NCBI GenBank assembly: GCA_017983795.1
Contig: JAGOAS010000007.1
Span: 62,001 to 126,000 of the forward strand
Length of the DNA stretch: 64,000 nucleotides
Direction of reading: 5' to 3'
Source: Piscinibacter sp.
GTDB taxonomy: Bacteria > Pseudomonadota > Gammaproteobacteria > Burkholderiales > Burkholderiaceae_C
Shown here: one piece after another, positions 10,733 through 58,865 of the stretch
Layout: every line of letters begins with the position of its first letter
Position numbering within the stretch: the stretch's first letter is position 1
Program-made: the position numbers and the translations under genes
Notes under the pieces: generated by a model
The model's input: the letters and a program-made list of their open reading frames with translations, nothing else
What the model was told of the DNA's origin: nothing
The model's database searches: none

Positions 10733-11845
<1,113 letters not shown>

Positions 11846-11864
11846 GAGAGGACACTCCTGGTCG

Positions 11865-11898
11865 AAAAAAAACCGCCGGGCTTGGGGCCCGGCGGTTT
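11865..11898 (-). terminator. Intrinsic terminator arm of the aroG attenuator
   Basis: On the minus strand the RNA forms a perfect 12-bp stem (AAACCGCCGGGC pairing with GCCCGGCGGTTT, arms 11898-11887 and 11881-11870) with a 5-nt loop, followed by a run of eight T residues. It lies 20 bp upstream of the aroG start codon and after the leader peptide stop, so it can only act on transcripts entering aroG. A stand-alone terminator for tldD is the alternative reading, but the preceding leader peptide argues for attenuation. Confidence 0.9.
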
Positions 11899-11998
11899 GT
11901 TGGATTCGCTGCGCTGTCTTCGCTTATGCGCTTGCCTCTCCATCCGCCGGGCGGTGCGAGAACCAAAAGTACGCAAAGAAGAAGTTGCGCGAAGACAT
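11865..11998 (-). promoter_or_regulatory. Transcription attenuator of aroG with competing antiterminator
   Basis: The 9-mer CCGCCGGGC (plus strand) occurs at 11873-11881 inside the terminator and again at 11944-11952 inside the leader peptide gene. The leader RNA segment GCCCGGCGG (11952-11944) is therefore identical to the 3' arm of the terminator and can pair perfectly with its 5' arm, making an antiterminator. A second perfect 9-bp pairing joins TGTCTTCGC at the start of the leader (11997-11989) with GCGAAGACA just after its stop codon (11923-11915). A ribosome stalled on the FFF codons would leave the antiterminator segment free, whereas completion of the peptide would cover it. Pairing is read from the sequence; the mechanism is inferred from known Phe/Trp/His attenuators. 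Confidence 0.8.
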
Positions 11999-12022
11999 GG
12001 GCGGCAATGTACCACGGTTCAT
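11924..12022 (-). CDS. aroG leader peptide, Phe/Tyr/Trp-rich
   Basis: A short open reading frame of 32 codons (or 24 from the internal ATG at 11998) encoding MSSRNFFFAYFWFSH near its centre, that is five Phe, one Tyr and one Trp within eight residues (F-F-F-A-Y-F-W-F). This composition is a hallmark of ribosome-stalling leader peptides; compare the classical Phe-rich leader of enterobacterial pheA. It ends with TAA 26 bp before the perfect terminator that precedes aroG. The first ATG overlaps the tldD stop as ATGA and has a GGGGG stretch upstream, allowing reinitiation by ribosomes finishing tldD; the internal ATG has no clear ribosome site. No promoter is obvious, so transcription may come from tldD or from a promoter within its 3' end. 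Confidence 0.82.
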   Translation of the reverse strand: MNRGTLPPMSSRNFFFAYFWFSHRPADGEASA

Positions 12023-13494
12023 GCCGTACCCCCGACCGTCAGCCGGTCGATGCGCAGCGTCGGCTGGCCCACGCCCACCGGCACGCTCTGGCCGTCCTTG
12101 CCGCACACGCCCACGCCGGTGTCCAGCGCCATGTCGTTGCCGATCGCGCTCACGCGCGTCAGCGCGTCCGGGCCGTTGCCGATGATGGTGGCGCCCTTGA
12201 CCGGATACTGGATCCTGCCGTTCTCCACCCAGTAGGCCTCGCTGGCCGAGAACACGAACTTGCCGCTCGTGATGTCGACCTGGCCGCCGCCGAAGTTGGT
12301 GGCGTACAGGCCGCGCTTGAGGCCGGCGACGATCTCCTCGGCCGGCTTGTCGCCGCCGAGCATGTAGGTGTTGGTCATGCGCGGCATCGGCACGGCGGCG
12401 TAGCTCTCGCGGCGGCCGTTGCCGGTGGGCTTCACCTTCATCAGGCGCGCGTTGAGCGCGTCCTGGATGTAGCCCTGCAGGATGCCGTCCTCGATCAGCA
12501 CGTTGCGCTGCGAGGCGTGGCCTTCGTCGTCGATGTTGAGCGAGCCGCGCCGATCCGGCAGCGTGCCGTCGTCGAGCACCGTCACGCCCTTGGCCGCCAC
12601 GCGCTGGCCGATGCGGCCCGAGAAGGCGCTCGAGCCCTTGCGGTTGAAGTCGCCTTCCAGGCCGTGGCCCACCGCCTCGTGCAGCAGCACGCCCGGCCAG
12701 CCGGGGCCCAGCACCACGCTCATCTCGCCGGCCTTGGCGGGGCGCGATTCGAGGTTGGTGAGCGCGGCCTGCACCGCCTTGTTCACGTAGCCCTCGATCA
12801 CGCCGTCGTGGAAGAAGCCGAAGCCGAAGCGGCCGCCGCCACCCGAGCCGCCGACCTCGCGGCGCACCTGGCCGTCCACCGTCTGCTCGGCGATCACCGT
12901 CACCGACAGGCGCACCAGCGGGCGCACGTCGGCCGCCAGCGTGCCGTCGGCGCGCGCCACCAGCACCACGTCGTACTCGCCGGCCAGGCCCGCCATCACC
13001 TGCACGATGCGCGGATCCTTGGCGCGCGCGAGCTTCTCCACCTTCTCCAGCAGCGCCACCTTCTGCGTGCTGTCGAGCGTGGCGATCGGGTCCAGCGGCG
13101 CATAGAGGATGCGGCTCGCGGCGATCTTGCGCGGCGCATCCACCTTCACGCGCCGGCTCTGCCCGGCCGCGGCGATGGTGCGCACCGTGGCCGCGGCGTC
13201 GAGCAGCGCGGCCTCGGAGATGTCGTCGGAGTAGGCGAAGGCGGTCTTCTCTCCGGCCACCGCGCGCACGCCCACGCCCTGGTCGATGCCGAAGCTGCCG
13301 CTCTTGACGATGCCCTCCTCCAGGCTCCAGCCCTCGCTGCGCGTGTACTGGAAGTAAAGGTCGGCGTCGTCGACGCGGTGCGTGGCGATGGTCGCCAGCG
13401 CCTTCGCGAGCGTCGCTTCGCTGAGGCCGAAAGGTTCGAGCAGCAGCGAGCGCGCAATGGCCAGGCGTTCGATCGTGGGTTCGCGGGAGATCAT
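12019..13494 (-). CDS. tldD: Metalloprotease TldD
   Basis: A 491-aa TldD homologue. TldD with TldE/PmbA forms a heterodimeric zinc protease that processes modified peptides (microcin B17) and antitoxins such as CcdA. The zinc-binding motif HExxxH is present as HEAVGHGLEGD at residues 272-282, with the characteristic SFGIDQGVGVRAV and GGGGRFGFGFFHDG stretches. The partner TldE is not in the window, which is common because the two genes are usually unlinked. The stop codon overlaps the ATG of the aroG leader peptide, tying tldD transcription to the aroG attenuator. The start ATG is upstream of the family core and gives normal length. Confidence 0.95.
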   Translation of the reverse strand: MISREPTIERLAIARSLLLEPFGLSEATLAKALATIATHRVDDADLYFQYTRSEGWSLEEGIVKSGSFGIDQGVGVRAVAGEKTAFAYSDDISEAALLDAAATVRTIAAAGQSRRVKVDAPRKIAASRILYAPLDPIATLDSTQKVALLEKVEKLARAKDPRIVQVMAGLAGEYDVVLVARADGTLAADVRPLVRLSVTVIAEQTVDGQVRREVGGSGGGGRFGFGFFHDGVIEGYVNKAVQAALTNLESRPAKAGEMSVVLGPGWPGVLLHEAVGHGLEGDFNRKGSSAFSGRIGQRVAAKGVTVLDDGTLPDRRGSLNIDDEGHASQRNVLIEDGILQGYIQDALNARLMKVKPTGNGRRESYAAVPMPRMTNTYMLGGDKPAEEIVAGLKRGLYATNFGGGQVDITSGKFVFSASEAYWVENGRIQYPVKGATIIGNGPDALTRVSAIGNDMALDTGVGVCGKDGQSVPVGVGQPTLRIDRLTVGGTA

Positions 13495-56972: not shown

Positions 56973-58865
56973 TCAGGCGGCCAGCAAGGCGCCCACGCGC
57001 TCGCGCAAGCCGCCCGGCGTGACCTGCGCCGGCGGCACCGGCTCACCCGCCACCAGGCCGACGCGGCTGAAGAAGCCGCGCCGGAAGGGCTTGCTCATCG
57101 CGTTGCCCTCGATGCGCGAGAAGAACGAGCCCCACAGGTTGCGCAGCGCCAGCGGCACCACCGGCACCGGGTTGGCCTCGAGCAGCTTCATCACGCCGCC
57201 CTTGAATTCGCCGAGCGTGCCGTCGCGCGTGATCGCGCCCTCGGGGAAGATGCACAGCAGGTCGCCGGCGTCGAGCACCGCCCGGGCGCGCGCGAAGGCC
57301 TGCTCGTAGGCCTGCGGGTCTTCCTTCTGCGGCGCGATCGGCACGGCCTTGGCGAAGCGGAACAGCGTGCCCAGCACCGGCAGCTTGAAGATGCGGTGGT
57401 CCATGATGAAGACGATGGGCCGCGGGCTGGCCGCCATCAGCAGGATCGCGTCGACGAAGCTGACGTGGTTGCACACCAGGATGGCCGCGCCCTCGGTGGG
57501 AATGTGCTCGTCGCCGCGCACCTCGAAGCGGTAGACGAGCCGCGTGGCGATCCAGGCGATGAAGCGCAGCAGGTACTCCGGCACGACGAGGAAGATGTAG
57601 CCGGCCACCAGCAGGTTGAGCAGCCCGGTGATGAGGAACAGCTGCGGCACCGTCACGCCCGCCTTGAGCAGCAGCGCGGCCATCGCCGCGCTGGCGATCA
57701 TGAACAGGGCGTTGAGGATGTTGTTGGCGGCGATGATGCGCGAGCGGTGGCTGGGCAACGAGCGCATCTGGATCAGCGCATACATCGGCACGCTGTAGAG
57801 GCCGGCGAAGAGCGCCAGCAGCGCCAGGTCGGCCATCACGCGCCAGTGCGCCGGCTGGGCGAGAAACCGGCCCAGCGTGAGCGCGCCCTCGCCGTGCACC
57901 AGGCCGCGCGAGGCGAACCAGAGGTCGATCGCGAACAGGCTCATGCCGAAGGCGCCGAAGGGCACCAGGCCGATCTCGACGTGGCGGCGCGAGAGCGTCT
58001 CGCACAGCAGCGAGCCGGTGGCGATGCCGATCGAGAACACCACCAGCAGCAGCGAGGCCACCTGCTCGTTGCCGCCCAGCACGTCTTTCGCGAAGGCGGG
58101 AAACTGCGTCAGGAATACCGCGCCGAAGAACCACATCCACGAGATGCCCAGCAGCGAGCGGAACACCACGATGCTGCCGTGCGCGAGCTTCAGGTTGCGC
58201 CAGGTCTCGGTGACCGGGTTCCAGTTGATCTGCAGCGCCGCATCGGTGGCCGGCGCGCGGGGCACGAACTGCGCGCTCACGCGGCCGAGCAGCGCCAGCG
58301 CGAGACAGCTCCAGGCCACGTAGCTCGCGCCGACCTCGGGCACCGCGATGAGCAGGCCGCCGACCACGTTGCCGAGCAGGATGGCCACGAAGGTGCCCAT
58401 CTCCACCATGCCGTTGCCGCCGGTGAGCTCGCGCTCGTCGAGCTGCTGCGGCAGGTAGGCGTATTTCACCGGGCCGAACAGCGTGGAGTGCACGCCCAGC
58501 AGGAAGGTGCACAGCAGCAGCACCGGCACGCTCTTCGCGGTGAAGCCGTAGAGCGCGATCGCCATGATCGCGATCTCCAGGTTCTTCACGAAGCGGATCA
58601 GCCGGGCCTTGTCGAACTTGTCGGCCAGCTGGCCGGAGGTCGCCGAGAAGAGCAGGAAGGGCAGGATGAACAGCGCCGCGATCAGCTGCACGACGAGTGC
58701 CGGCGCGAGGCCGCTGGCGCTGGTGGCGCCGAAGGTCACCATCACGGTGAAGGCGAACTTGAACAGGTTGTCGTTGCCGGCGCCGAGAAACTGCGCCCAG
58801 AAGAAGGGCGCGAAGCGGCGCTGGCCCAGCAGCGCGAACTGATTCGTCGGATGCGGATCGTGCAA
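56973..58865 (-). CDS. MFS transporter fused to 1-acyl-sn-glycerol-3-phosphate acyltransferase (LplT-PlsC type)
   Basis: A 630-aa fusion. Residues 1 to about 415 form an LplT-like MFS with some twelve helices (opening FAPFFWAQFLGAGNDNLFKFAF), the flippase that brings lysophospholipid inward; residues about 430-630 form a PlsC acyltransferase with the HxxxxD motif in CNHVSFVDAILL and FPEGAITRDG. Such proteins re-acylate lysophospholipids at the inner membrane. The E. coli Aas adenylation domain that would activate the acyl chain is not fused here, so acyl-ACP or acyl-CoA must come from elsewhere. Confidence 0.92.
   Translation of the reverse strand: MHDPHPTNQFALLGQRRFAPFFWAQFLGAGNDNLFKFAFTVMVTFGATSASGLAPALVVQLIAALFILPFLLFSATSGQLADKFDKARLIRFVKNLEIAIMAIALYGFTAKSVPVLLLCTFLLGVHSTLFGPVKYAYLPQQLDERELTGGNGMVEMGTFVAILLGNVVGGLLIAVPEVGASYVAWSCLALALLGRVSAQFVPRAPATDAALQINWNPVTETWRNLKLAHGSIVVFRSLLGISWMWFFGAVFLTQFPAFAKDVLGGNEQVASLLLVVFSIGIATGSLLCETLSRRHVEIGLVPFGAFGMSLFAIDLWFASRGLVHGEGALTLGRFLAQPAHWRVMADLALLALFAGLYSVPMYALIQMRSLPSHRSRIIAANNILNALFMIASAAMAALLLKAGVTVPQLFLITGLLNLLVAGYIFLVVPEYLLRFIAWIATRLVYRFEVRGDEHIPTEGAAILVCNHVSFVDAILLMAASPRPIVFIMDHRIFKLPVLGTLFRFAKAVPIAPQKEDPQAYEQAFARARAVLDAGDLLCIFPEGAITRDGTLGEFKGGVMKLLEANPVPVVPLALRNLWGSFFSRIEGNAMSKPFRRGFFSRVGLVAGEPVPPAQVTPGGLRERVGALLAA

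Follow-up and report, generated by a model that had tools for sequence, protein, structure and literature searches.

The locus described here raises the question of how aroG, the DAHP synthase gene at the entry of the shikimate pathway, could be controlled by the short reading frame and the terminator that lie in front of it. In the present study, the window (the whole analysed stretch of 64,000 nucleotides from Piscinibacter sp.) carries on its minus strand, in order, tldD, a short open reading frame, an intrinsic terminator, the aroG ribosome binding site and aroG. We consider it highly probable, from sequence comparison, that this element is a ribosome-mediated transcription attenuator of aroG which senses phenylalanine, tyrosine and tryptophan. 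The parts on which this reading depends are as follows.

12019..13494, minus strand: tldD, metalloprotease TldD (NCBIfam PRK10735.1, E 3.7e-191, above cut-off), the upstream neighbour, outside the switch.
12006..12014, minus strand: extended -10 promoter element TGG-TACATT (TACATT at 12006-12011), 7 nt upstream of the leader ATG, by sequence.
11924..11998, minus strand: leader open reading frame MSSRNFFFAYFWFSHRPADGEASA*, probably leaderless, with its ATG at 11998, by sequence and conservation.
11989..11997, minus strand: 5' strand of the start:post-stop helix, UGUCUUCGC, which takes in the U and G of the start codon.
11960..11983, minus strand: aromatic codon run F-F-F-A-Y-F-W-F, by sequence and comparison of loci.
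11936..11962, minus strand: sequestering hairpin (1:2), UUCUC at 11958-11962 with GAGAG at 11936-11940, which can hold the antiterminator arm.
11944..11952, minus strand: antiterminator arm GCCCGGCGG, which pairs with the terminator 5' arm.
11915..11923, minus strand: 3' strand of the start:post-stop helix, GCGAAGACA, directly after the leader stop codon.
11870..11898, minus strand: intrinsic terminator AAACCGCCGGGC-CCCAA-GCCCGGCGGTTT, 12-bp stem with a 5-nt loop, by sequence and fold.
11865..11872, minus strand: U tract of the terminator, eight T, three of them within the stem, by sequence.
11855..11859, minus strand: Shine-Dalgarno core AGGAG of aroG, by sequence.
10733..11845, minus strand: aroG, DAHP synthase, the regulated gene (TIGR00034, E 2.8e-163, above cut-off).

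For the aroG product, the AroG model PRK09261 gave the top score (545.8 bits), which is below its own cut-off of 568. Several parts had been named in the preliminary description and were found as claimed, these being the frame with F-F-F-A-Y-F-W-F, the perfect 12-bp terminator with eight T's ahead of aroG, and the exact 9-nt copy of the terminator 3' arm inside the leader. That description had also taken the switch to be complete; its parts are indeed present, but the hairpin able to sequester the antiterminator arm had been missed.

The search for AroG took in 100 family genomes from 99 genera, and 98 of them gave a match at E <=1e-100. For 95 of these 98, the sequence ahead of the main aroG was examined; of the three genomes left out, G055 and G058 gave nothing beyond paralogue-like matches (58-60% identity), and the third was G083. 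A short open reading frame in which a stretch of eight residues includes four or more aromatic ones occurred in 93 of the 95 upstream regions, and the stricter limit of five was reached in 91 of the 95, versus 8 of 1900 dinucleotide shuffles. Phenylalanine, tyrosine and tryptophan were all present in 84 of the 93 leaders. No leader was seen in locus L275, where the contig end cuts the region and the terminator end alone remains, or before the distant aroG (63% identical) of locus L277. The terminator, searched by pattern as a 3' arm with T run and a 5' arm, was found in 83/83 loci, and conservation was concentrated on the aromatic codons and the switch arms. In one congener (L003, genome G005) the usual leader ATG does not share its frame with the aromatic codons, which may be a sequencing error because this genome is listed as 77% complete.

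The start of the leader was taken, for the promoter count, as the last ATG before the aromatic run, regardless of any promoter. The first choice of leader start had used the -10 element as a criterion, and the count was therefore redone without it. When limited to the sequence upstream of the originally chosen start, the recount gave 39/93 loci; with the last ATG before the run, an extended -10 (TGnTAnnnT) ending 5-10 nt before the ATG was found in 80/93 loci, versus 0.43% in base-shuffled upstream controls. The spacing to the leader ATG was 7 or 8 nt in 72/93. Scored without the TG, the -10 was present in 84/93 loci versus 6.0% in base-shuffled upstream controls. Among the 13 of 93 loci without an extended -10 at the tested place, four showed by eye a -10 minus the TG and four a -10 before another in-frame start; a clear -10 was not found by eye in five of the 93 (L048, L070, L104, L267 and L268). 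Furthermore, a Shine-Dalgarno core was seen before the leader start in 0/93 loci versus 66/93 before aroG. Because the usual distance from a -10 element to the start of transcription places that start at or beside the A of ATG 11998, the leader is probably leaderless. The extended -10 near the ATG together with the missing Shine-Dalgarno core argues that the leader mRNA probably has its own promoter as well and is not fed by tldD.

Three competing pairings were recognized in the leader RNA, namely UUCUC with GAGAG, GGCGG with the CCGCC of the terminator 5' arm, and the terminator itself. The UUCUC overlaps the last aromatic codon and the following serine codon, and the GGCGG arm sits between UUCUC and GAGAG. 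In the 75 loci laid out, an exact GAGAG was present in 68 and exact TTCTC and GAGAG together in 57, and the best GAGAG-like site was located 7 or 8 nt away from where the arm begins in 75/75, the search having given preference to 7. Since peptide classes differ by one column in the placement of the GGCGG arm in the MAFFT alignment A1, the pair counts were taken from arm-anchored scripts.

By script, the five core antiterminator pairs were all standard in 83/92 loci. A genuine core-pair mismatch was found in 5/92 loci, which are L040, L066, L272, L274 and L076, the last beside its compensatory change. Script artefacts were judged by eye (register errors in L056, L077 and L270, a misplaced arm in L042), and L069 was left unscored as the script found no arm there. 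Core pair 1 shows a compensatory A-U for G-C, AGCGG with CCGCT (L263, L265), and core pair 5 shows GGCGA with TCGCC (L270, script register corrected by eye). At core pair 2, GACGG with CCGTC occurs in L088, L093, L097, L269 and L271, and GACGA in L076, where independent events are fewer than loci because related genera probably share the GACGG/CCGTC change. The preliminary description had proposed to align relatives and look for conserved aromatic codons and covarying arms; with the leader in 93/95 regions and compensatory changes at three of the five core pairs, this comparison came out in favour of its claim.

Own pairing was compared with cross pairing in a permutation test over 74 loci, one per genus. 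For the antiterminator arm and the terminator 5' arm, own pairing was on average better than cross pairing and 0/2000 permutations reached it, as was also the case for the start:post-stop pairing (0/2000), while the terminator stem gave 4/2000 and the control pairs gave 1434/2000 (start with antiterminator zone) and 1945/2000 (antiterminator zone with post-stop); these counts are not probabilities, because most loci are invariant at each core pair and related genera share changes. Against base shuffles, the antiterminator pairing had a mean z of -3.17, with z < -2 in 62/74 loci, and the three control pairs had mean z of 0.09, 0.59 and 0.24. A second pairing of 9 bp, joining the leader start to the stop region, had been presented as an extra control element. 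We found that this pairing, UGUCUUCGC/GCGAAGACA, is present with 9 bp in the minimum fold of the window and that it coevolves, with weaker support than the antiterminator pairing (mean z -0.94; z < -2 in 14/74 loci). In 50/74 loci, U2 or G3 of the start codon was paired in the best start:post-stop duplex.

The folding of the leader RNA was predicted with and without the terminator. The window stretch including the terminator was stable compared with dinucleotide shuffles (z -3.67 and -4.23), and the leader without the terminator was not unusual (z -0.72, -1.45 and -1.56). In the window RNA from 11952 to 11885, which mimics a ribosome masking the sequence upstream, the predicted fold is the antiterminator, at -32.6 kcal/mol and 81% of the ensemble. 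In the RNA from 11998 to 11885, where the leader is free (z -1.56), the sequestering hairpin takes up the arm, and the domain is closed off by the start:post-stop helix. Across loci, the masked transcript formed the antiterminator in 75/75, and the minimum fold of the unmasked leader contained the antiterminator in 28/75 and the UUCUC:GAGAG hairpin in 32/75. When the whole terminator was included, it was always formed, even with everything upstream of the arm masked; the switch must thus be kinetic and decided during transcription, since the full terminator always wins in these folds.

What the analysis itself provides is the set of sequence parts and how far they are conserved, together with the coevolving pairings and the predicted fold switch, and from these we infer the transcription start, the translation, the stalling, the termination and the amino acid response in the following order of events. 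RNA polymerase would start at or beside ATG 11998 from the element's own promoter, and the leader peptide would be translated from a leaderless mRNA. Under a shortage of charged Phe, Tyr or Trp tRNA, a ribosome stalled in F-F-F-A-Y-F-W-F would cover the UUCUC arm, the freed arm GCCCGGCGG could pair with the terminator 5' arm, and aroG would be transcribed. With ample supply, the ribosome would reach the stop codon, or the leader would refold after release; the arm would then be masked or kept in the UUCUC:GAGAG hairpin, the terminator would form, and transcription would end before aroG. While the leader is untranslated, the start:post-stop helix probably favours the terminated state. The central claim of the preliminary description, an attenuator ahead of aroG that senses aromatic amino acids, is supported by the conservation in 93/95 regions, the spread over the order and the covariation. 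If it is true, the enzyme at the entry of the shikimate pathway would be under a sensor that responds directly to all three aromatic amino acids, in a large bacterial group whose records carry names such as Comamonas, Delftia, Hydrogenophaga, Polaromonas and Polynucleobacter.

The probable leaderless start and the start-codon helix are the parts of most interest. As a tentative extension, which we hold to be possible but on balance doubtful, the element may belong to an order-wide class of leaderless attenuators in which a 5'-terminal start codon is captured by a coevolving post-stop helix, so that initiation would be restricted to the first transcription-coupled ribosome and a basal level would be set; the terminated RNA of ~135 nt might remain in the cell as a small leaderless mRNA. 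If such a class is real, the fate of one ribosome decides entry into the shikimate pathway.

Termination before aroG might instead serve mainly to produce a trans-acting RNA, either a small RNA or a small mRNA, comparable to rnTrpL and peTrpL in Sinorhizobium. The probable leaderless start, the strong terminator and the helix that in many genera joins the 5' end to the post-stop region would fit such a product, and the trpL case (PMC7298713) is a precedent. However, it is the aromatic codons and switch arms that conservation centres on, and the relatives that were read sit before aroG; we regard this as an unlikely main function, and a role in trans need not exclude the attenuator.

It is far less probable that the leader is a longer peptide starting at ATG 12022, which overlaps the tldD stop, with both translation and transcription of the switch coupled to tldD. 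The preliminary description had placed the leader start there, and the ATGA overlap (12022-12019) is present in the window together with an open frame of 32 codons; tldD also ends less than 400 nt from aroG in 49/62 loci, counted where tldD was in the stretch read and the leader start was undoubted. Against this reading, the overlapping ATG sits upstream of the extended -10, which lies between ATG 12022 and ATG 11998, 7 nt before the latter, at the spacing conserved among the loci. In addition, the distance from the end of tldD to the leader start ranges from 20 nt, in the window itself and the smallest, to 876 nt across 62 loci (three with doubtful starts left out), which makes the overlap a local feature. 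The start at the overlapping ATG was thus rejected on the promoter position and the variable distances, and the leader most likely begins, from its sequence context, at ATG 11998. The idea that ribosomes leaving tldD feed the switch was likewise not borne out, and read-through from tldD could still contribute some transcript. As for the reading that tldD is simply followed by a terminator and that the aromatic run is accidental, the terminator is strong and, in 64/83 loci, the stretch read includes tldD on its upstream side, but the excess of aromatic runs over shuffles, the coevolving antiterminator and the promoter element between tldD and the run already contradict it, and we leave it next to no weight, for an unforeseen artefact.

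The attenuator reading was followed beyond the family by a covariance model built from 77 sequences of alignment A1 (MAFFT), with the terminator stem as its sole structure. Full-length matches at E <=1e-7 were obtained in 34/150 genomes of the order, from 13 families and with the window's own genome counted; any match at E <=0.01 was obtained in 68/150, many of these being terminators only. All 29 of the 29 order loci fetched, the window's own aside, had aroG downstream and an aromatic-rich open reading frame before it, and four more full-length matches lie outside these 29. At the level of the class, 8/143 genomes matched at E <=1e-4, two of them belonging to the family; of the six outside it, one (L279) had an aroG-like gene with an aromatic leader and five were without an aroG found. 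The L279 locus (genome G266, same class, outside the order) has similar arms, its aroG-like gene is 55% identical over 101 residues, and its aromatic leader may start with GTG.

A pattern of promoter plus leader was also run over a collection of named genomes and gave at least 120 stretches. Among the matches listed (80 named loci), aroG lay downstream in 78, L117 runs out too early for the gene to be seen, and L157 was without tldD and aroG and is taken as a chance match. The titles among the matches listed include Comamonas, Delftia, Polaromonas, Hydrogenophaga, Rhodoferax, Ramlibacter, Methylibium, Rhizobacter, Limnohabitans and Polynucleobacter. In the source genome, apart from the known site, the model search for a second copy of the element gave only the terminator on the opposite strand (E 0.011) and, at another place, a partial match (E 0.10). 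A second DAHP synthase gene is present in this analysis (genome G000, contig 7, 164889-165947), with 57% identity to the AroG of the window. Before the DAHP synthase paralogue, no aromatic leader was found in 4 stretches, only one of which has a clear gene start; on the upstream side of the second DAHP synthase (L106), where the gene start is not clear, no aromatic-rich leader was seen.

Leaders with related logic have been described in other bacteria. In Corynebacterium glutamicum, a Phe-Tyr-Phe leader precedes aroF in the aroR-aroF attenuator (Neshat et al. 2014, as cited in the review PMC11802643 and the RNA-seq study PMC4046766). It resembles the present element in having a leader peptide before a DAHP synthase gene and in the rise of transcription upon ribosome stalling, which is predicted here, and it is reported to respond to limitation of Phe, not of Tyr; it differs in belonging to an actinobacterium and in its shorter aromatic run. 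The Escherichia coli pheL-pheA and pheST attenuators are likewise governed by Phe supply, but they control a later step or a tRNA synthetase, as given in PMC11802643. In Acholeplasma, the uORFC-13-1 motif before aroF, outlined in PMC8632094, shares with our element a predicted uORF with a Phe codon, a terminator and a DAHP synthase downstream, whereas its model has a ribosome binding site and at least one Phe residue, and it covers only Acholeplasma and environmental sequences. PMC8632094 also refers to a hypothesised attenuation of E. coli aroF. In Sinorhizobium meliloti, the first bases of the trpL leader RNA are the ATG of its peptide, and the downstream gene is under attenuation (PMC7298713); an RNA starting at the leader ATG is probable for the present element as well, from the -10 position, whereas trpL senses Trp and controls trpE(G), and a trans-acting RNA and peptide have been demonstrated for it.

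Among the literature matches listed, no description of the aroG element in Betaproteobacteria was found, and an earlier mention is possible in comparative work on attenuators of proteobacteria, with Vitreschak et al. 2004 and Panina et al. 2001 as likely sources; the parts of PMC2965389 and PMC5343134 that were available do not describe it. The logic of attenuation is old and known for DAHP synthase in Corynebacterium, and the present element would belong to a bacterial switch family for which no earlier description was found among these matches. If the reading is correct, it would add a family which Rfam 15 did not return for the window or for the loci of 20 relatives, and a well-conserved natural case of attenuation on a leaderless leader mRNA.

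With Rfam 15, no family reached its gathering score for the aroG leader stretch in the window, and in 20 of the 29 order loci only tRNA and SRP RNA were detected, both elsewhere. The Phe leader of Rfam (RF01859) had no match at gathering score in the window and was absent from the 15 matches at E <=10 in 11700-12200. The phe leaders of E. coli have a Shine-Dalgarno sequence. A Leu_leader match in 11700-12200 was weak (17.2 bits vs a threshold of 50). On the plus strand, a sub-threshold Atu_C9 match (11737-11898, 33.6 bits vs 40) lies antisense to the aroG start and the terminator; it probably carries little meaning and was set aside. Elsewhere in the window, at 58077-58198 on the minus strand, the Rfam model Bcj11 (Burkholderia RNA 11) gave a match of 112.4 bits against a threshold of 49.
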